This document shows, piece after piece, positions 12,301 through 60,919 of a stretch of 64,000 nucleotides of DNA. Where the stretch lies: the NCBI RefSeq assembly GCF_947623445.1, contig NC_135244.1:6510001-6574000 (forward strand). Direction: 5' to 3'. A program made the translations under genes and the position numbers. The stretch is from Clavelina lepadiformis (Eukaryota; Chordata; Ascidiacea; Aplousobranchia; Clavelinidae). The notes beneath the pieces were generated by a model that ran no database searches, was not told where the DNA came from, and worked only from the letters and a program-made list of their open reading frames with translations. The first letter of the stretch is position 1, and each line of letters starts with the position of its first letter.

Positions 12301-15300
12301 GTAAATAAAATGAAATCTATCTTTCCTATGAGGTTAGTGACACATACAAAACCAAATATTGATGAATCAGACTAAAACGCCTAGCTAAGCGCGTTAACCT
12401 AACCTGTGTAAGATAAATTGTATCCTTAAAAACTTGAGTAGAATTGCCGACATTTGGCATATTAAAGTGCATAGCAATCTGATTAAGCATTTCTTGGTTG
12501 CCTGTGGCATGATGTTGACGATGATCTGACCAATTAGAGTTCATCTTCCGGTCTTCAGCAACCGTCACTGGCACGATGGTTTCAAAAGACGGCCATGACT
12601 GAAAGCCATATTCTGACGCAAACCTGGATAGTTTGCAGTTATTTGAGTTAATAGCAGTGAAAATAGAAGCTGGAAATTCATCATCAGTAACGAATGACTA
12701 CATTTTCCATTACTAGCATTGCACACCGTGTTGCTGGGTACTTTGTGATGTCCAAGCAATCATCATTGTAATTGTAATAATGGACATCTCCATTGTTAGG
12801 GTCATATGGATTCTTGGCGACCCAACCTTCCTGCTTTGTCTCGAGGCCATTGCTCGGGCTTGAAGTGGCAAATGGCCGAGTGGTGTCCAAGCTTTTTACC
12901 GTTTTATGTACGGTGTCTAATACAGTGAATTTTTGCGTTAAACATAAAACCTGAAATAGATTGCAGTGTTTGGGATACTTACCAACGTATAGCGACAAAT
13001 AGTCTTGCTTATAACGGTCAAAGTGCTCAGTGGTATTGTACCAGTCTGTGGATAAAGCAGCTTCATTTTCATTATTTCCTGCCCAGATCACAATGGATGG
13101 ATGGTGTTTCAGAGACCACATAGCTTGGTCAATTTCCTACAAAATGTTAGAGAATGAATTAAATCTTGAGCAAAAAAAAACTTATTTTCATATCAAAAAT
13201 ACTAATAATACTCAGACTTAGAATGTCAACTACCTATTAGTAATGAAACGTAGTTGTGATTGTGACAAAATACATTGCTTACTGCTTCAGCCTTCAACAC
13301 TAAGGAGTATCATGTAATTTTTTGTTGACTACATAAGACGTATGTATGAGTACTTCGCTTTAGTTTGGTCCAGTAATATGTATGTTATATTATTTACAAA
13401 GTAGCGTAGCTGAAATTGCGCAAACGGTATGAGGGAAAGACTTGGATGCCGACCAAAAAAAGAGATTTAATCAAAACTCTCACGCTTTTGGGGGATTTCC
13501 CGAAAGTAATGGGATATTATATTAGTGAATAGGGATGCGCCGATACGAACCCAAAACCGAACAGAATCGCCGAAAATCGCCTTTATGGAAGATTCGGGCG
13601 AACACGAATACCAACAATAGCGAACCCGAATGCAATATTACTTATAAATTTACTGACTTTTGTTAAAAATTATGATCTAATTTCCCGACAAAGCTAAACT
13701 AGAGTCAGCAGTACTTATAATGAAGGTCGTTTTCCTAACGATTTTGCTTTTTCAATCGTTTTTTAAACACTATTTTTCGAAAGAAAGCAATTTGTTTATC
13801 GATTACATCATGTTACAAGTAAGACTTGACAAATTTTGGATGAAATTTTATTGTTTGGTTCTAATACGAATAGACTCGGGATTCGTTCGTGTCGACCTTT
13901 ATGATATTCGGTTTCGCACGAACCCGAATAATCTTCCTCACGGCACATCGCTATTCGTGGATTCTTTCTTGTTGGAGTGGCCCTATTGTGTGATAACGGA
14001 TGACTCTGTTTGCAGTAAACATTGAGCACAATACTGTACCTGCACCATTTCGGTTTGGTAAACCACCTGTTGTTGGCAAGTGGTAAATGAACTTTTCTTA
14101 ATAATATTTTGGGATTAATTCGTTTGCAAAATTAAACATTTAACGCTTTGCCAAACATTTAAACGAACAAAAGTTAAACATTTCCCCTCTAAGATTTACT
14201 AATTTTAATTGCCAAAACTTGCTATTCGTCGTGATACATTGGTAAAAAACAAAACAGTTTAATTGATGTACGTGCTCATCAACTCGTGCCTGCCGAAGTC
14301 ATTGACTAGCGGTTTAGAAACTACGCAACGTTCCGAAGTGCACTACCGTTTAATTAGAACAACTATGTGTTTTGACCTAGTGCCACGGTTCGCACAAGCA
14401 TTTCCAGTAACAAACATTGTTAACAACAGTTGGTTTTAAACAGTGGTTTAAAAGGTCAAAACGTAACGTAATTATCCTTTAAACAAAGTAATAAATTTCC
14501 AGGCGAATCTTTTCTAAATTTATCATAAACAAATTTAGAAGATGGCCTACAAAATAAATACAAATTTGTCAGAAACAAAAATACACTTGCACACGCCGTT
14601 AAATGGATTGATACTGAGTGAGGATAAAAACAAAAGCTTGGCTTCAAAGATTTCGAAAAACAGAAACGACGTACAAGAAAGCAAAATAATAAAAATCACG
14701 TGGAAGTGGTGGTATCGTTGTGCTGCGTGAGACTTCGCTGGAAGGAAACAGGCTAACGGTATTAGGACAGATGTTTTTACCGGTATTGGGCCACTTTTCC
14801 TAATACCTCTTTCTACACCATTTTATATAGGTATTAATATATCCTACCTGAGTTACATTTGAGAGGAAGTTATCGGTAGCAGGATACATTGCACAAGCAA
14901 ACATGAAGTCTTGCCACAACATGATACCAAGGCGATCAGCTGCTAAATAAAACTCTTCATTCTCATACACTCCGCCACCCCACACTCGCAGCATATTCAT
15001 ATTTGCCGATTTTGCTGATTTCAGCAAATTTTCATACCTACGTACGAAAATATTGTATAGTCGTATTTGAAATTGCGTTTGCAAAATTGCACGAAAGTTT
15101 TAGTGAAATTACCTTTCAACTGTCACCCTATTGTTGAAAGCATCTGCTGGAATCCAGTTAGCACCTTTGGCAAAAATCGGCAAATCATTTATTCGAAAAT
15201 AGAAGCTTAGTCCAGTGCTGTCTTTAATTGCCTCTTGCACCAGTTCTACTTTGCGGAAACCAAACCTGAAACAAAAGGTAAACAGTCCAAAGTACTATAG

Positions 15301-21515: not shown

Positions 21516-24500
21516 ATGTTATACCGTGGCTTTATCAACTTGAAGAAAGCTTTTTTATTGGTATTAGCAGTAACCTTCATCTTGATATTAATTTTGAATA
21601 CATGGAGCCAGTTTGCTGTAGTAGCAAAACGAAGAAATTTTGTTTTAAACAAAGAAAGAATGCTGCCGTTTGCACAAGCCAGTAATTCCATGACAGTTCA
21701 TACAAGCGACAACATTGGATATACAGAAGACATGTTCATTGCAAATATGGCTGAGCGAATGCAGCAAAGAAAAGCGCAACTGAAACAAGCTTGTGAGAGT
21801 TTAGGTACAAGCCAGCCGGCACGTGCTTTCTGCTTGCATTGTTCTCGTTTATGATTACAAATATTATTGAATATCACATATCGTTTATTTGTCATTAAAT
21901 AGTTGGCTAGCTGTTATTTTCTTAAAACATTTTCTGCAGTGTACAATATGCATTTGTAAGATTTTTTCCAAGACTCACCGCAAATAAAGAAACACTGTAA
22001 ATTAATTTTTATGAAAAATCGTAGTATAGCATTTTGTAGAAAAATTAAGAAACTCCACTGGAAAGATTAAGACAAAGTAAAAGAAACCTTTCCTTTAGTT
22101 ACTTGCCATCCTGTTTTTAATGTAGTTTTAAATAAGTTACAATATGCATTCACTTGCCGTGATGCTTAGCAATTACTTAAAGTCACAAACTATGCTGGTC
22201 ATGCTACAATATGAGTCACAGATCAAAGTATCTTAAACAAGAATTTATTTACATTGTCATTTCATGTTATGAGACAAATCCCAACATCTAAAAAGTTTAG
22301 TTTTTAATTTTTCAGGACTACACGAAGACGAGAAGAGGTTATTAAGAATCAACTTTTCCAAAGAATATAAGTTTGCTTATTGCTACATTCCGAAAGTGGG
22401 CACTACCCATATGAAGGGCGTTTTGATGGAACTGAATGGCCATACGAATGTAAGTCATATAGGCTTATCTCTCTTATAGATTATTATTTTCTGTTACTTT
22501 AAACCTGGGTTATTCAACGGGGGCGACATTGTCCATCAAGGGGGAAATTGTGACAATTTTTGAAGCTGGGGGGCGATTTTATTTTTCAAAAGTGTGGAAG
22601 ACGTTGTTTCCATTGTCTTCCAAGTTGTGATTTTATAATTATGTATCCGTTATTTACCGCGCTATTATTGCATAACGTCATACTTGCTTTGTTTGTGATT
22701 ATTCTTTTTTTGTGATAATTTCAAAGCATATTGTATATCGCAAGAAGCAAATACATTCGTACAAAAATAATCATAGGGGCGATTTTGACCCAGAACTCCG
22801 AAAAGGTGGTGATTTCTCAAAAAAGGTTGAAGACCACTGCTTTAACCAATAAGCTTTCTGTGAACCATCAGCTTTATCAGTAAACAGCACTAATTATTAA
22901 GCGTAATTCTTGGTGCAGAACTGATAAGACTATTATTTGTGAAGTGCTTGAATATGTGGTGTTTAAACGCTTTGCTATTGTTGTATACAAAATGTTTCCT
23001 ATGACGTATTTTTAACTGGGTCAACTTTCGCAGAACTGCAAAACTATTTCTTTGTTCACACTTTTTGTTCAGAAATTGTTATTCTATGGACAATAACTAT
23101 ATGCTCGGCCGCACCGATTAAAGCTTACTTGGTTTGGAATAACACAATTGTCTACACTCTACAGTGATTTGCATACCGAATGCTAACAAAGGCCGACGAT
23201 TAATGAACGCGTGTACATTAAACACGCATACTGTAATTAAAACGACAATTAACAGTTTTGAAATCAGCTTACCTTTGTAGCCTACTGCGATATAAATCAT
23301 TGGAATTTGTTTGATTTTATGATATCTCGAATGATTTACTTTAACAAATCATCTGTAGTGGACACCTGACGACGTTCATATTTTGACGGCCAAGCGTTAT
23401 CTTTTCAAAGGCGAAAACTTGCCGGAGAGTTTTCGCAACTTCATCAAACTAATAGTTGTTCGCCATCCTTATGAGCGCATCATATCGTCATATAACGACA
23501 AAGTGGCCAATCCGCAAGAGAAAAAGTTCATAGAAAGATCAGGAATGATTCTAGAAAAATATGGAAATCAATCCAGACAAAGAGGTGAATTTATTTCGAC
23601 GCATTTTATTTTACAAATATGTTTGTTAGTTATATATATAAGTTAACAATGACGTACCTTGTAATTTTTACTTAATTCTTTCAGAAAAACGTAAAGTGCC
23701 TACTTTCGAAGAATTCATCGATTACCTTGTAGATGGAAATAATCAAGACGTAACATCTGGAGTTGAAAACCATTGGAATTCTTTCAATTCTATTTGTCAA
23801 CCATGTGCTATAGATTATGACGTCATTGCTCATCTAGAAACGATCGACGATGATTCTCGGTGAGGCCTATAATACATAATATGCAGTGATGTGCAGGCTT
23901 TTTTCTTGTTTTCATTCCAGAAAGTCAGTTTTAACAATTGTTTGCTGAATATGAGGCTATGATTTAAATTGTTGGGTTTGAGACTTGAATTGTCGCGATA
24001 TCCTGGATTCTTGGGATCGCGTATAGGCTACATACACCACAATAATCCCATTACACAAAAAATAGCATCACAAAAATTAATATTTGCCTGTGCAGCCTAT
24101 GCACTCTTTCTTGCAAGAAGCTTAGGTTTGGAGCTTCTAGTCTAGCAAGTAAACTGGTCTGTAGTTGAATTTCGTCGTAAATTTCATAGTATAAATTTCT
24201 TAAAGAGTTTTTAATAATTTACCAAGACTTGAACTTGCTTTAAACAAAAAGTCATTGTGAATTAGCTATTTTCAGGTAAGAAAACAACAGAGCTGGTGTT
24301 TACTGCAAAGTTTTGGATATAATCATATAGTTTTGTGAGCATCATGGCAGATTTTAACATAACCTCTTCGAAACTTTAGCCACCTTAGTGTTAGGTTTGA
24401 AAAGGCAAAATCAAGCTTGCAAAAGCTCATGTCAATAAATTAAAGTTAACTCTCAGTTTAAGGCGCTATCTATTCTGCTTTTGCTTTTAATTATCAGTTG

Positions 24501-49559: not shown

Positions 49560-52500
49560 ATGGCCCAAGTTGCACAAAAACAAAAAGTTGTTGAGGTAAG
49601 GTGACTTACTCAGATAACATGATTTTAAATTATCTTTTAATGTATATTATAGTTTTACTGCAACCTATAACATTTTGTTATGGCTGCTGCATGCGTGTAG
49701 TGCATTAATTACCCATCATGCTTTGTTTAAAGACAAACTTTATTTTTTCATTTTTAGGCGGTTGAAAATGATACCCTTACGAAGGTTCAAAGTAAAGATT
49801 TTGTGAAGAAGATCCTTGCAATCAGCATTTCGAATATCACTTACCTACGAAATTTATTCCCGGAGTATGCCTATGCAGATCGTAAAATTGAAGGTATTTA
49901 ATTGTGTTTGCGTAAATATCATAAATTCTATCCAGGTAATTGAGGTTGAATTTTAAAGATTTTATAATTAAATCCTTGGAGGTATTCAATTGTGTTTGAG
50001 TGAATAACATATATTCTACCAACTCTATTCTACTCAACCAAAGTAATTGAGGTTGATTTTAGTTTTCCATTTTAACAGCTATCTATCTCTTTTTTTAAAG
50101 AGCTCCAGCTCAAAATTTTAAAAGAACACACTCACAAAGGGGCAGGGGAAATAGTTCAATGGTAAGCTCAAATGCAATACTGCTTTATATTATGCAGTGT
50201 TGTGTTATTATGCAATAATGTGAAAGTTTTTAAAATAATTCTTACAAGCCCAAAATTGGCATTAAATAAATATTTGATTAAATAAGTTTATATTTAGATT
50301 TCATGACTGCAATCTATCAACAGTTGTCATCTTATGAAACTTTGCTTAGGTTGAGTTGTTGTGACATTAATCATCAATTATATATATAAATATATATACT
50401 ATAAAGGTTTTGGCAATGCAATTCTAATGATAACTTGATCTAACATGATTTTGCTTGTTATACCGTACATGCCAGCCTATAGGCCCACTTTGTAGCGTGT
50501 TGAAATCATCACAAAAATTAGTGGTGCGTTTATACGCCAAGATTAAAATGTAACGTAAAAATTTTCATTCTGATCACATAAAATCATTACTGACTTACAT
50601 ATTTCCCTAATCACAGCTAAATAAACAACACATCACAACAGTTTTCAATTGCGGTTACGGTATCACACTTTCACCTTTCCACATAAATTCACTTGGCCGT
50701 TGTGGTCATGATTCTTTGCGAGTACAGCAAATGACTTTAATGTTTTTATTATTTACAAAACTGAACAATTATGCATACGTCAGTTCAAATTTGTTTAACA
50801 GCGTAATAAGAAAATAAATAGTCAGCTAAACAGGCAGTTTTGCAGGAAGTTATTTTTGCCGTTGATATTGCTTCCATTATAGGATGTCTTCTATTCAAAA
50901 ACACAATGCATTGTTATGAAGTTGTAGGGTCGCGAAGGTCACATACAAAGACTTCATGGCCGAGGTGCAATTATTCTTTTGTGGTCAAAGGTCAAAATGT
51001 GGTATGGGTTTATATGGCGAGTATAGGCTGAAAGCAATATGCTGGACCCAGAAATCAGTAGTGGGTTTATACGCCGGATGGGCCTATATTATATGACAGG
51101 CACACTTATATTGAGTAATTTTGCTTGGCTTGATTTTTTCAAACTATCCCTACTCTTAACCAAATCGTCCTATTTGATGTGATTTAATTCAATTTAACAA
51201 ATCAAACAATTTTAATTTAATTGTATACAATTTTGACAAACAAGTTTGTCAAATGGAACTAAAAATATTCTCAACCATGTGGAAAGAGTTCTAACTACTT
51301 ACTAACATAGGAAAATTTTTGTGTAACATATAGTCAGTATGTAGACTAAAATGCTTTCATGTGAAATTATTAGTTGTAAATCAATGCTGCATTATGTAGT
51401 AGGGGTTAGACATTGCTTTAGGTAATTAAGTTCATCAGGAACCGTAGGTTACTAATATGCAAAACAATTGACTTAAACCTGATGTTCGCTTGAACTATTG
51501 AACAGTTTCCGTTCACGGTTTTCACCCATTCATACTTTTAAACCTAAGGTTCAATTTCAAGTGATTTTTCTGTTCAAAAGTTTTTCTGTTTTACATAAAG
51601 ACAATGCCTTCCGCTCAAAATGTCTGAATGTCTTGTAGCAATTAAGCGATACGATGCATTAAATCTTAAATGCAAGTTTAACTCTCACTCATTCTTCTCA
51701 TGGAAAATAGTCGAAAAAATAGTTTCTTTCAAATTTGAATGTGACTGCTGCTGCCGATCAGACCAAAAGCATTTATTTGCTAAATCACTGCAAGGCCACT
51801 ATTGCCATTTTAAACGCTATAATGATAAATTGCTTGAATAAAATAAATGCTTAAATGATTAAGTCGACATCCAAAAATCAAAGAATATAAATATATATTT
51901 CAAAACAAACAACCTTACGTCCAAAACTTATATTCACCCTAAGCTTATGAAACTCTAATGTTTTGCAAATATGTTTATCTAAAAACTTTAAACTCAAAAG
52001 TTGAATTTTAGATTTAAGGCACTCTAGTTTCAAGTAACAATATAAAGCACGACTTCACTATATAGTAATTTTAGACTTACTAAGGCATAACTGAGCATAA
52101 TTCCGTTGATGAGGCTTATGTATTAACGAATTTACAATCACAAACTTTTTGTATATAATTTACCACCAAACAAGACTCCTCGTTGTTGATTTGACTAGAA
52201 TCATAAGGCACTTAGTTTAAAGAAATTTTTTTTGTAATTGTCACATTTTTTTTGAATTTGTAATATTTTATTGCAGCATTCTCAATCAAAATTTTGCAGT
52301 TCTACAGAATGTTTGCACCTCCAAAAATAATTTGTTCTCCTTAATTACAATAACAGCAAAGTTTGCTTAGAATAAAGAAAACATCCTCATGGCCTGTCAG
52401 TTTAGTCTATTCAACGATTCTCCTTGTCACTAGGCAAATTCTACAAAAAGGATTATAAATCGTTGCTGTGGTATAAGGTTAATTCAGTCGTTCTCAACCT

Positions 52501-55500
52501 TTCATGGTTTGTAGCCCCCTTACAGAGACCCTCAAATTCTGTGGCCCTCTACTCATCAATAAAAACTGTAGATTATTGATTGCAAAACACTTTTTACTTC
52601 ACTACTGCGTGTGCAGTAGCCTTTGCATCGCTAATTTTGCTCAGAAAACAGAAAAATGTGAAAAACTTGTGTCCTGCTTTGCCTCATCTTCCACTACTAC
52701 TACACAATAGCACACTAGTGAAGCATCTGCTTGTGGCCCCCGGTTGAAAAACCCTGGGTGAGACCTTGTTTATCTGGATCGCTTTGTTTCGTCGAAAAGT
52801 GTCGGTTTAGCGAGGTTTCCAGATTTATAAATTAACATGCATTAAGGTTACACTAAATTTTGACATTAAAAAGAACTGTATATGTTGAAGATGCATCTGC
52901 GTTGAAAGTAAATATTTCAAGTGAAAGAATTTGAAAATTGATCAACGACTGTGTCTTAACAAACATTAATGTGTAACAAATATGAAAAATGGATGTATGA
53001 ATTTGTAACATTTGCTGTAATCTCGATTACTGGATGTACCGTATTTTCTATTGGCATATCTGTGTCTAAATTGCTGTGTCGGATCTGGATTAAAGGTTTA
53101 AAATACATGGGAAGAAATTTGTTTCTAGCAGTTTCATATTTCAGGTTTTTGGTTCGTATAAACAAAGTCTAATTGTATTTGTATGTATTGTGCAGGATGA
53201 AAGGAGTTTACGATGCCCTCGACCAGGAATATTTGAAGGCACTTATCTTTGCTGTATGTATATTGATTTCCATTGACAAATTTTCTGACAAATGTGTATT
53301 GATTTCCATTGACAAATTTTCTGTTTGTTAGAAATTAGAGTAATCACTATTAAACACTTGAAAAAAGCTTGTATTGTTTTATTTTAGGTATGTACTGATC
53401 CGGAAAATCCAGGTGTAAGTGTTCGGTACCATTTGTGTTGCAGGTTTTTTCTGGCTTCTATGAATATGTCGTGATCAGCTTATAAACCACTATGCTATTT
53501 TAGAGTGTGATTGAGAGTTACACATTTGCTTTTACCTACAATGATGGCGTGGTAGAGACAAGTTACACTGTGGGTTCAAAAGATTCCAAAAGTGCCAAAG
53601 TTCCAACGAAAGCGCAGACTAAAGATTCTGCAAGACAGTGAGTTTGTCATAATGCTTTTTGTCATAATGCTTATGCGGCCGAACTTCAAACAAAAACGCA
53701 TTAAGCTAATTAGGCTAATCTTGTTAAAGCATTTGTTAATGTGTCACTTATTTTAATTTTTTACATGTTTTAACAGATTACTGCGAAATTTAGTAATATT
53801 AACCACCCAAATGAAACCATTGCCAAAAAATGTATTCATGACCACAAGGCTACTCTATTACGATGAAAGTAAGCTTGTTGAATCCATAATATTGCTTCAT
53901 AATATGTTTATAAACTAAAATAGTTTGATCACTTACTTGCAGATACGCCACTGAATTATCAACCACCAGGCTTTGTCGGAGCAGCAGAAAACGAAACACT
54001 TGGATTTTGCATTGAAAACATTCGTATTAAGGCTGGTACTATAATCACTCCCCACAGTTGCATGAAGGTTCGCGTTCGGGCAGAAAAAGACCAGTTTGAG
54101 GTGATGTGTATTGGTTGTATATTCATTGTTTTGTACATTCATTAGTTATAATTATGAGATATGGCAGTGCTTCTCATCTCTGTGTTGCAATACCGAATTT
54201 GGTTACTGAGTGATTTTGGGGGTGTTCTATTAGAAATGGGGCAAGTCGAGTTGGAGGTTGCTTATTTCCATTATTTGGTTGAGTATTGCTTCATACTCAG
54301 GCATCACACATAGTAACTAATGCTATTTTATTTTGCACATCAATACCCACAGCCAGTTTATATTCTGATTGTATGAACAAAACATTAGCTGCATAAGGTC
54401 ATGTAAGATACTCTAAGACAATTTGTCAAGTCACTTGTTGCTGCTTTGAATGACAACAGGTATTAGTTTAAGTTTTCAATATAGTCACTTAGTCAGTAGC
54501 GATTGTGTTATCATTACAGTTTACAAATGCATTGTGTCCCAAAAATAATATGCAGTAAGAAATAAACTGAAAACAGTAAAAGCAAATCAGTCATAGTCAA
54601 ATACATAGATGGGTACATATAAGGCATTTCAAAACCAACTCAATTTAACTTGGGCCACTAGGGGCAATATTTTAGCATTTTGACCCAAGTGAATGTAATG
54701 TAAAGATTTCGTGTAAAATTTCTTTAATAACTTAAAAAACTAACGCTAGCTACCAAATTAATCGTTTCTATTCAAAAGCTTATTACAAGAAGCATCATTC
54801 TCAGTAAACTTGGTGCTGGCTGAGAAGTGGGAACTATGAAGTTCAGTCTTTTTTCATCACCATATGTTATGCACTTGAGTCACAATTTGTCACTAAATCT
54901 AAATTCAACAGTGAATCAAACTGCGGCTCAAATGCTTTATGTACATACTCGAAATGGAACTTGTTATTCCAGATCTCATTTATCAAAACTTCTCGCTGTC
55001 CGACACAAATCATTAAAAAAAAATTTCCTCCCATCTGTTTTATTGCGTTGTATCCTGTTTGATTATTCCGGAAACTTCACTTATCCAACACAATGCTCTG
55101 GACATAAAATGGTTCAGATTAACAAAATGTAGATAGTATGGATAGAAGCTTATAATTACCAAAGTGACTCAACACTCAAAGTGATGTTACATATCGGTGA
55201 CAAAATGTAATGCCACCGCAGTCTAAATAATTGACGTCATGAATTAAATTTTGTCATCATACCGGAGTATACCAGATTTATTGAGTTATAGCTTTGACGG
55301 TAGTTATATTATTAGTAATATTTGATAGGTCATAGTTCTTTGATTGGTATTCCTGTTATTAATGGAAGTGACAAAACGTAGTTTTTGTGCATCTAATATT
55401 ATTCAAACTTTTCTAACCTTAGAAAGATGAAAATGCTGAATTGAAGCAGACAAACTTAGAACTTGATGACTCACAGATGGACTGCCTCTCCCAAGCAACC

Positions 55501-58500
55501 AGCAACGTTGTATGATTCTTTTTTATTGGTTAATTATTCACGGATTGAAACATGCTTAATTGCTCATAAATACTTGTAAATTCTACTTTGTAATAGATTT
55601 GCTGAAAGAAACATGAAACATTTTGTACAACTGTAAACATTTATTTTATCAACTTTGCAGGATATCGATATTCCACTTGCAACTTTTCAAACTCAGTCAA
55701 AGACAAAACAAGGTATGAAATTACTGTTGTTAGTAAATATAACGAAATCTTTTGCTGAAGAAATGCAAGAACATGAAGTATAACTGAAGTAATTTTTCAT
55801 TTTCAGTAACAGTTGATGATCAGACGTGGGACCAATCCTCGCAGAAAAACACACAAGGTAGTGCATCATACAGTCATATCAGTACCATGGTATGGATGCC
55901 TTAAACCTGTTTGTTTTGAGTACAGTTCCAGCTTTATTTTCATTAAGCAGAGTTAGGAGTTAGATGTCCATGTCTGGATGTAGAAAAGGATGGCCTTATG
56001 ATAATGTGCTCCCACTGCAATCACTGGCAGCATGCCATTTGCTTCTGTCTGCCAGATAATGTCAAAGCTCCTAGAGTTCATATTTGTCATCTTTGTGCAG
56101 AGAAGGTCAGTATGTCGGCAGGAGGATCCTAAAACAGATTTTCAACCGCCTGTGTCCAAATATTTTTGTGTTCCAAATTATTTTAGAATAGAATATCAAT
56201 GCTGTATTACAATTATACTCCACTTGAATGTCAACCAGTTCTATAAATCAGTGGTTTCAACGAGTCAACTCAACTTTTCCAATCTTTTAACTTTTGGTTT
56301 AATCACACATCCGATAACATTTTAGTGCTGTATAAGCTTTACCGGCTGAGTTTGTCGTATCTGATAAGCAACACATGAGTCTGAAAGCCAATTTCTAATA
56401 AAGGGTCCATCGAGACAAACAAGTTGAGAACCACTGCTGTATATCTGAATCAAACTTTTCTGTCCCCTAGAAGCATGCTAGTGAGCAGTCACTGCGTTTG
56501 TGTTAGCAATAGTTTGTTGGCTTTATATATTTTCATAATCTTGCAAACATGCTAAAAATTTATGTTTTTTCCTATCTAATCACCTCATACGCTGTTATTT
56601 ATCTTATATTGCACAACATTTTTGCAACCTGTGTACACATCATCATATTAATGTATACTCTTGTTAGTCACAATTTGGTATTGGCTACCTTCACTGCTTT
56701 CCATAAGAAGCAAATTTCAATAAGAAAGTTTAAAACTGTCAGTCATTTGAAGCTTTGGTGTGTTGTTGAGTCTTAGTAAAACAGTATATAAAGATATGAT
56801 CAATGTACAATGTACAATATGATCAAATGTATATCTCTAATTACATCTGATAGTTTAGACCAGGGATGTCCAACCTTTTATTATAGTGGGCCGCATTGTC
56901 ACTTGAAATAATTGAATGGGCCGCAAAATCTATTAAATTTCAAGAAAAATGGGTACATAAAGTACATACTTTTGGAGTGAAAATGACTAGCGGGCCGCAC
57001 AAAACTCTCAGGTGGGCCGCACTGTGGCCCGCGGGCCGCAGGTTGGACATCCCTGGTTTAGACTTTCTAGGCTGGTCACACATTTAGCAATTTAATAGTG
57101 AGAAAATAGACACTTAGGACCACTATAAAAGTCTTATATTGTATACTAAAACAGTCAGATTATTATGAAGAGAGGTAATAAAAAGTACTTTCACACATAA
57201 CTTAATCAGATACTACTATGTTAGTAGTAAAACTACCTTACAGCATATTTTTTTCGTTTCACTTTAGCAACAGTCACCAACAAGGGCCTTTGGTTTGAAA
57301 AATTTACCGAGTGAAAACATTGAATAAGCATTTATTTAATTAGATTTGATATTGTGAAATTGACACCCTAATAAAAACTTTCGTTTCTTTTTTAATCTTT
57401 GTAAATTCAACTTAGGAAAACCTCGTCTGCACCGATCCTCGTCTTACAGGAATGTCAGTGGAGCGCCAGCAGGAGGTCTGTGGGTTGAGGCGGATATTAC
57501 TACTCTGCTTTGATACTGAAGCTATCACCATTTCTGTAAGTATTAATGTAATGGTCGTTGCCGTTCAATTAAACACTCATTGCATTGATTTCGATTTAGT
57601 TATATCAACTTTTATAAAATCAACTGTAAAACATCCACTGCTGATCTATAATCATCTTAATCATCCAATTGCAGATGATTTGCACAAAGTTGTCCTGCAA
57701 TAAGGTACTAGCTCAGAGAATATTGGGAAAATTAATTATGGATGGAGCTGTAAAAGTTGCAAAAGGCCACAGGTATCTCATAGCTATTTAGACATCACTT
57801 ATTCTGGACAAGTTTGAAGGGTCATTTCTCATTACCTTAGTACCTTTACTAGAATTATCCAAATTCTGAAATAAAATTTGTAATTGTGCAATTTTTTTAA
57901 TTTTCTTGAAACTGTTGTCTATCCTGAACTAAAGCCTAGATCATCTAACTTATCAACAAACACTACAGTAATTTTTGTATTGCTATGTTTTGTGTAGTGG
58001 CATTCTGGTGAAGGTATGCGTTGTGTCTGATATTATAAATACTAGGATGTTTTGTTATTTCACCCTTATTGAAATTAAAAACGTTTGGGCAAAAGCAAAA
58101 AGCTCTTTGCATCTCATGTGGACAAGTAACTATGAAGAGGTCAAATACATTTGAAGTAGTTAGTTTTTAAATATGATTAAATAGTTTTTTTGTGAAAGCA
58201 ATTCAGTGTCCACAGCCATTATATATTACTTTTGCAACTAAGGCATGTTTAATGTTTATTCTGTGTTGCTGCTGTAGTCAGAATCAAAGTCTGAATAAAG
58301 AGAATTGATCAAGCTTTCTAGTTTTTGTTGTTTTGTTATAGACAGAACAAATTAATAGATAAAAAAGGATTAAAAACGGTGTTCTATCGTGAGGTTGAAC
58401 ACGTTTGTAAGAATCTTGCAAGACAAAGAGGTGAAGACGTCATCGACAGTGGATCAGGTATACATGGTAAAAACAATGCTCGAAGACACAACTCAATATC

Positions 58501-59052
58501 TATAATTTTAAGTTAAAACAAATAAATACAAAAAATCATGTGCAGAAAATCTTCCACTTGAAGAAAAATGTTTTTTCCAGTCTAATCCTTTGCACTCATT
58601 AAACGAACAGGTTTGTGATCTGACAGGCATATAGGTACTTTTACATTGTGTGAAAGACAGCACTTTATGTTGTTTTGTGTGGATTTTGACGAGAACAAGG
58701 AAGTTACTTTATGAAAGTTTTTGTCTTCGATTTTGAAGAGCAAAACTTACAACTTTCAGCGACTAAAATTGTTTTCTTCATAGACGCATGACACAGACAT
58801 GGAAGTTGACTCTAAAGAGCAAGGTCGAAAACGTCCAAACTCATCTCTTAGTGACGAAAATATTCCAGGTCTTCCTGAAAGCCAGTCCTCTCTGGACGCA
58901 TTTCAATGCGATAGGGTAGGTTTTACCTAATTACTTGAACTGTTCCTGGCAACGTTGAAGGTTTTTTTTGTTATCTTTAGTCGAGCAATGGTCGACGTTC
59001 ATCCAAACGCAAGAAGATGTCAAAATATCCAACAGTGTTTAATCGAATGTAA
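49560..59052 (+). CDS. HORMAD1: HORMAD1/Hop1-type meiotic HORMA protein with PHD finger, 18 exons
   Basis: Meiotic chromosome-axis protein that promotes double-strand breaks and homologue pairing. Exons: 49560-49595, 49758-49893, 50101-50161, 53196-53253, 53388-53414, 53504-53637, 53777-53868, 53943-54100, 55423-55509, 55661-55712, 55807-55857, 55951-56105, 57416-57535, 57675-57772, 58342-58457, 58546-58610, 58784-58915 and 58981-59052. Total 549 aa, all phases consistent. The HORMA domain spans about residues 15-235 (AISISNITYLRNLFPEYAY; SVIESYTFAFTYNDG; LLYYDENTPLNYQPPGF). Residues 303-346 form a C4HC3 PHD finger (CPC...CSHCNHWQHAIC...CHLC). Residues about 350-390 (RRILLLCFDTEAITIS, LAQRILGKLIMDGAVKVAKG) fit a winged helix. 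Together these are like the chromatin-binding region of yeast Hop1, which mammalian HORMAD1 lacks. The basic C-terminus (RRSSKRKKMSKYPTVFNRM) is a possible nuclear localisation signal and closure motif. Confidence 0.95.
52485..52756. mobile_element. hAT-type MITE in HORMAD1 intron 3
   Basis: The left end CAGTCGTTCTCAACCTTTCA mirrors the right end, which on the other strand reads CAGGGTTTTTCAACCGGGGG. GTAGCCCCC and GTGGCCCCC lie just inside the two ends. Target-site duplications are not clear, so the boundaries are approximate. Confidence 0.65.
53261..53323 (+). repeat. 36-bp tandem duplication in a HORMAD1 intron
   Basis: TATTGATTTCCATTGACAAA followed by TTTTCTG occurs at 53261-53287 and again at 53297-53323. 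It starts right after the donor site of exon 4. Confidence 0.9.
56861..57055. mobile_element. Young-looking 195-bp hAT MITE in HORMAD1 intron 12
   Basis: Begins CAGGGATGTCCAACCTTTTA and ends with the perfect complement of its first 15 bases (GGTTGGACATCCCTG). It is flanked by two identical copies of GTTTAGAC (56853-56860 and 57056-57063). The inside carries several GGGCCGC motifs. The perfect duplication and ends suggest recent insertion compared with the others in this window. Confidence 0.92.
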
Positions 59053-59567: not shown

Positions 59568-60919
59568 TTAAGCAATTACTTTGTCTTTCCCGTGGTCGTA
59601 TCCATGGTTTCTTTCCCAAGTCACCATTAGGCCAGGTCTATAATTTACGATGAACGCTCTTCTTTGTTTATCAGTGCTGTTTCCGCGAGTGTAGTGAATA
59701 GTTCTGCCGTGATGCAAGGTACAAGAGCCAGCACGTATCGGTGAAGCAATCATTTCGCTCTAAGAAAAGAGACGACGTTTATCTTAATAGCTCGCACAGA
59801 GCACCGCTAATTGCCAAAACCGGGATTTAGGATGTAATGTGTAGAGTTGCGTAGTTCGCTGCTCCATAATATTTATATGACATAGTTACGGCTTAACACG
59901 CTCTTGTTAGTGCCAAGAAATTACCTCGTCCCCATCGCAGCACAAGACGTGGTGACCTTCTCTTGCTTGCCGATGCGGGCGTAGTTCCTTGTTATGAGAA
60001 CCTGGTACAAACCACATGCAGCCGTTGTCAACCGTCGCATTGTCCATCGCTACCCAGACCGTCACCGCGCGCTTGTCAGGCATATCACACCAATACGACT
60101 CGTCTTGGTGCATTGGGGTAACGGTATCGGTGAGAGGTGCCTTCAGTTGCAGCGTAATCGATTAAAATCGGTGTACTATGTATTCATTGTATTGCCTTTC
60201 ACAAGCTATGTTCGTGCTACTGTATATATGTTACAATGTGAGATTCGTCTCACGCAGTCCTAAGAATAACATTTTAACAAATTTTACCTTTGATATGAGC
60301 ATGTCAAAGTCAAATGTCATATCATCGCCGAGAATTATTTTTGCGATCTTCGCGGCTCTCTCGTGAAGTTTCCCTTCTTGCAGATTTTCGACGTAGCTTG
60401 ACGGCCACATTATTTGGCAGATATTCTCCTGCTTGCTTACCTGCAGATGCAAAAATGCGGGAGCTTTTCATCATGGTTGTACGGTAACGGGCCAAGTAAT
60501 TGTTTATGTATAAACCAAATAATTACACCAAGCTCAAGTATTTCTTCGGCGAGTATTAAAAGACTACAAGCAAATCGCATGTTGCGTACAAGTTATCTCA
60601 CTTTGCGATCAACATGATTTCCTAGGTCGTGTCGATGGGACTTTGCATTAATTTCACCTGATAGCAACTTGTCGTAAATGCGCTCGTAACCTATGATTTC
60701 TTCATGGCTCAGCAGACCTTCCACAACCTTATTCGCAACAAACAGAAGTTAGCTCTCTAGCACAGTCTAGTATCTGTCTGTACACTAAGTTCAGTTCAAA
60801 TAACCTTTTTTATGCTTAATTTCTGTCGTGAGTAGACTCACCAAGTACCCCTGTTGATCAAAATTTTCTTTCCATTCTGCGTGGTTCTGTTGAGCTAACC
60901 AAGCATCGACGTCGTTCAT
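59568..60919 (-). CDS. Phytanoyl-CoA dioxygenase (PhyH) family protein, 5 exons
   Basis: Non-haem Fe(II)/2-oxoglutarate oxygenase. Exons 60919-60842, 60727-60602, 60440-60288, 60140-59925 and 59759-59568 give 254 aa; all introns are phase 0. The iron ligands are His130 and Asp132 in the HQDESYW motif and the distal His213 in HHGRTIHYTRGN. An Arg a few residues further (in KQRRAFIVNY) is placed to bind 2-oxoglutarate. AVTVWVAMDNATVDNGCMWF and VPGSHN are typical of the family. No clear peroxisomal PTS2 or PTS1 is visible (C-terminus KVIA), so it is closer to the short cytosolic PhyH-domain proteins than to PHYH itself. The substrate is unknown. It is tail to tail with HORMAD1, and its start codon lies 0.5 kb from the end of the next minus-strand gene. 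Confidence 0.92.

Follow-up and report, generated by a model that had tools for sequence, protein, structure and literature searches.

Does a meiotic HORMA-domain gene of this animal encode, behind its HORMA domain, a PHD finger and winged helix of the kind through which Hop1 binds chromatin? The question is raised by positions 55951-58457 of the window, the 64,000-nucleotide stretch of DNA analysed here. The original prediction proposed for this interval that a HORMAD1-like protein keeps a Hop1-like module.

Gene model and HORMA domain

AG/GT borders were picked by eye in the window and the pieces then joined, yielding a predicted model in which 18 exons on the forward strand (49560-59052) are separated by 17 GT-AG introns of compatible phase and form a single open frame from ATG to stop. 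The spliced frame measures 1650 nt including the stop codon and encodes a protein of 549 amino acids, referred to below as HORMAD. Exons 1 to 8 (49560-49595, 49758-49893, 50101-50161, 53196-53253, 53388-53414, 53504-53637, 53777-53868 and 53943-54100, all +) supply the start codon and the HORMA domain (residues 1-234). Exons 9 to 11 (55423-55509, 55661-55712 and 55807-55857, +), stop-free and with fitting GT-AG borders and phases, make up the linker between the HORMA domain and the chromatin-binding region (residues 235-297), in which a Pfam search at E≤0.1 found zero domains. Exon 12 (55951-56105, +) encodes the PHD finger (residues 298-349), followed by a winged helix-turn-helix (wHTH) in exons 13 to 15 (57416-57535, 57675-57772 and 58342-58457, +; residues 350-460, the match stopping at residues 435-438). 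Exons 16 to 18 (58546-58610, 58784-58915 and 58981-59052, +) encode the C-terminal tail, basic in the last exon, and the stop codon. The interval of the original prediction runs from the start of exon 12 to the end of exon 15 in this model.

Introns 8 and 12 are each about 1.3 Kb long: intron 8, of 1322 nt, follows the last HORMA exon, and intron 12, of 1310 nt, separates the PHD finger from the start of the wHTH. Intron 12 contains a short element with inverted ends (56853-57063; arms of 28 nt, 89% complementary) that reads CAGGGATGTCC...GGACATCCCTG and is flanked by two copies of GTTTAGAC, at 56853 and 57056. It looks like a non-autonomous element with an 8-bp target duplication, which we take to be a member of the hAT family. 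A stretch in intron 3 (52484-52759), starting with TCAGTCGTTCTCAACC and ending with GGTTGAAAAACCCTGGGT, resembles a degraded short repeat element by eye; the repeat search returned zero inverted pairs for it.

In the spliced product, the Pfam HORMA model matches residues 24-219 (E=1.8e-56) over profile positions 1-208 of 209. The best PDB match to this part of the protein (residues 15-234) is 8J69, a HORMA domain-containing protein 1, which ranks above 8CXK, HTP-1 and HTP-2. An N-terminal HORMA domain of this type suggests a meiotic HORMAD, of the Hop1/HORMAD1 kind. A HORMA-family search of the animal's own genome (209,060,895 bases in 95 contigs; E≤0.001) gave one match, the HORMAD gene itself; an exon-by-exon search of this kind argues only weakly for a single copy. 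Plasmid records searched with the gene gave zero matches, as expected. At the other end of the protein, the C-terminus is basic and its extreme possibly forms a closure motif; the last 31 residues found zero matches among PDB chains at E≤10, a closure motif being too short for such a search.

The PHD finger and the winged helix

Eight putative zinc ligands (C303, C305, C317, C320, H325, C328, C343 and C346) occur in exon 12 with the spacing C-x-C-x11-C-x2-C-x4-H-x2-C-x14-C-x2-C. A C4HC3 search pattern, composed after the exon had been inspected, matched once in the six frames of the window, in exon 12, and in none of 30 mononucleotide shuffles. Pfam PHD_5 matches residues 301-347 above its cut-off (7e-7; 29.7 vs 27 bits), and the general Pfam PHD model falls below its own (0.0028; 18.1 vs 24 bits). 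In the alignment, all eight zinc ligands of Schistosoma mansoni Hop1 face a Cys or His of HORMAD. The full C4HC3 finger initially read from this exon is borne out by these results, which point to a PHD with one C3H and one C4 zinc site, as found in PHD-wHTH chromatin-binding regions. Exon 12 alone, folded without relatives, gave a model too poor to support anything (mean pLDDT 54.5, pTM 0.30).

A PDB search with the module encoded by exons 12 to 15 returned 36 matches at E≤1, headed by 9MUG (3.7e-24) and then 9MYP (2.7e-23). According to PMC12365614, 9MUG is the chromatin-binding region of S. mansoni Hop1 and 9MYP that of Patiria miniata Hop1; each is matched in one continuous stretch covering both PHD and wHTH. 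The comparison with the Hop1 chromatin-binding region called for by the original prediction thus comes out in its favor by sequence. HORMAD is identical to 9MUG at 46 of 135 aligned residues and to 9MYP at 49 of 138; like HORMAD, both combine a PHD and a following wHTH in a HORMA-domain protein, with eight zinc ligands and a Trp at position I of the PHD pocket. The PHD alone matches 9MYP at 3.8e-11 and 9MUG at 1.1e-10. When exons 13 to 18 are used by themselves, they still match the wHTH part of both structures, 9MUG at 2.2e-7 and 9MYP at 8.8e-5, so the winged helix score is independent of the PHD score. Three Pfam families, S25 (0.00076), PCI (0.028) and Rrf2 (0.059), match exons 13 to 15 weakly, each below cut-off; all three contain winged-helix folds. 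The segment with winged-helix character, originally noticed directly after the finger, is thereby substantiated, and represents the wHTH of a PHD-wHTH chromatin-binding region.

Yeast Hop1 chains are absent from the PDB matches at E≤1 (module) or E≤10 (exons 13 to 18), a miss by sequence not being equivalent to absence of likeness. The designation "Hop1-like" holds for the presence of a PHD-wHTH after the HORMA domain, but what the module matches is the holozoan, two-part form (PHD-wHTH). We identify the gene, with a high degree of confidence, as an animal meiotic HORMAD of the Hop1/HORMAD1 kind, on the grounds of its uninterrupted spliced frame, its domains and its homology to two solved chromatin-binding regions. 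In order, its protein comprises the HORMA domain, the linker, the PHD-wHTH chromatin-binding region and the C-terminal tail.

DNA-binding residues, the PHD pocket and alternative readings

Residues were mapped using offsets derived from the construct limits and from the mutated residues named in PMC12365614. The DNA-binding arginines 463, 477 and 480 of P. miniata correspond to K408, R422 and K425 in HORMAD, basic at three positions out of three (K/R/K vs R/R/R). Those of S. mansoni (Arg 389 and 407) correspond to Q403 and H421 (Q/H vs R/R), basic at neither of the two, with R404 and R422 lying one column further. In the PHD, W323 aligns with the cage (position-I) Trp of both 9MUG and 9MYP; W323, M314 and V301 fit pocket positions I, II and III, the columns having been mapped by letters only. 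The conserved lysine pocket of Hop1 PHDs consists of a Trp, a Met or Leu, a small hydrophobic residue and, most often, an Asp; in the structures compared there, this fourth position (IV) carries a negative charge, and Asp is its commonest residue in Hop1 modules (PMC12365614).

Exactly two of the 46 PHD columns are acidic in all four comparators (9MUG, 9MYP, Set3 and PHF20). HORMAD has Lys310 (codon AAG at 55986) and Ser318 (codon TCC at 56010) at these columns, in contrast to the acidic residues of the S. mansoni and P. miniata structures. By analogy with MLL5 and ING2, residue 310 would be position IV and residue 318 the contact for H3 Arg2. Both acidic columns being changed, position IV would be non-acidic in HORMAD whichever column it is, and the replacements suggest that histone-tail reading may differ.

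Judging from the family, the HORMA domain would bind closure motifs of axis-core proteins and be remodelled by TRIP13/Pch2. The wHTH would bind DNA and the PHD add a histone-tail contact, as suggested by the family and by experiments with the P. miniata protein. The chromatin-binding region of the latter binds nucleosomes, and the W376A and R480A changes each reduce this binding; nucleosomes with an H3K4me3 analogue and unmodified nucleosomes are bound about equally (PMC12365614). Direct binding to histone peptides was undetectable for the authors of that study, whose inference of a preference for H3K4me3 rests on AlphaFold 3 models (PMC12365614). With DNA bound by the wHTH and nucleosome binding aided by the PHD, HORMAD could by itself dock on chromatin; its module would then engage nucleosomes and might help bring the meiotic double-strand-break machinery to chromatin, beside cohesin-based recruitment.

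All of this presumes that exons 12 to 15 belong to the HORMAD transcript. Their joining to the HORMA exons is inferred from the splice model, and the two introns of about 1.3 Kb offer space for alternative ends; hence these exons could conceivably constitute a separate chromatin gene or a remnant, skipped by a HORMAD transcript of the vertebrate type. We consider this highly improbable. The four exons lie on the same strand, in continuous phase and free of stops, and they have kept the zinc ligands and the hydrophobic pattern. Furthermore, the best PDB matches to the PHD-wHTH pair are themselves HORMA-domain proteins, and HORMA followed by PHD-wHTH is the published order in animal HORMADs (PMC10907721).

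With exons 12 to 15 regarded as part of HORMAD, the function of its PHD can be read in more than one way. Fold and DNA docking could be kept while the PHD, with Lys310 and Ser318, is not a usual reader of H3K4 methylation, serving chiefly to support the wHTH structurally or else reading another state of the tail. The two changed columns speak for this, as do a non-acidic residue where position IV of Hop1 modules is usually acidic and the poor conservation of the pocket in budding-yeast Hop1 (PMC12365614). Conversely, W323, the Met expected at position II (M314) and a Val at the presumed position III (V301) are all retained; the columns derive from the letters of four comparators rather than from structure; and the P. 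miniata module, acidic at both columns, showed little discrimination between H3K4me3-analogue and unmodified nucleosomes (PMC12365614). On balance we think such an altered role rather unlikely. Still more doubtful is a lineage-specific rewiring of the histone-tail groove that retained nucleosome docking by the wHTH and weakened or altered H3K4-methyl reading; if true, it would represent an intermediate step toward the full loss of the module in vertebrates. Either way, Lys and Ser at two acidic PHD columns make a small, testable point on H3K4 methylation reading.

Published relatives and neighbouring genes

The original prediction held that a gene of this kind keeps an ancestral module and dates its loss to within the chordates or vertebrates. 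The gene agrees with the published assignment of a loss to Vertebrata, provided that the animal is a tunicate, but the evolutionary claim itself is already in print (PMC10907721, PMC12365614). Milano 2024 found PHD-wHTH without a clear HTH-C in 36 of 149 meiotic HORMADs, in Opisthokonta except Saccharomycetaceae, described PHD-wHTH as present in many animals and assigned a loss both to Vertebrata and to Chromadorea, a class of nematodes (PMC10907721). The 20 chromatin-binding regions of the Rodriguez 2025 set comprise 17 of the PHD-wHTH type and three from budding yeast (PMC12365614). Ciona intestinalis (XP_009860628) and Branchiostoma floridae (XP_035662583) are among those used there for structure prediction, and we liken them to HORMAD by that listing. 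Both were taken as PHD-wHTH by elimination, because only three of the 20 are of the budding-yeast type. Their inclusion, together with the loss reported by Milano 2024, means that the headline of the original prediction had been published for two non-vertebrate chordates. The PHD-wHTH arrangement is already on record for a range of invertebrates, among them sea squirts, lancelets and starfish; what HORMAD adds is a further species and two unusual residues in the PHD.

Saccharomyces cerevisiae Hop1 resembles HORMAD in having a HORMA domain followed by PHD and wHTH (PMC10907721). It differs from the two-part match of HORMAD by an extra HTH-C (PMC10907721) and by a non-canonical binding of nucleosomal DNA (PMC12365614). 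Mammalian HORMAD1 shares with HORMAD the HORMA domain (8J69, 7.4e-44; species not given by the match). Unlike HORMAD, mammalian HORMADs are described in PMC10907721 as devoid of the chromatin-binding region. The present gene adds one genome to a published pattern in which a meiotic HORMAD with its own chromatin-binding region is kept by many animals, the region having been lost in mammals and in most nematodes.

A convergent gene of the phytanoyl-CoA dioxygenase family (59568-60919, -; PhyH, Pfam 4.4e-36, spliced by eye) ends about 0.5 Kb beyond the HORMAD stop codon. Farther away in the window, ORFs between 11261 and 17946 (-) resemble, by eye, exons of a beta-mannosidase-like gene, and one of these ORFs (12687-13136) matches the TIM barrel of glycosyl hydrolase family 2 below cut-off (0.0017). 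An ORF at 23359-23643 (+) matches the sulfotransferase family (Sulfotransfer_2, 9.1e-10).
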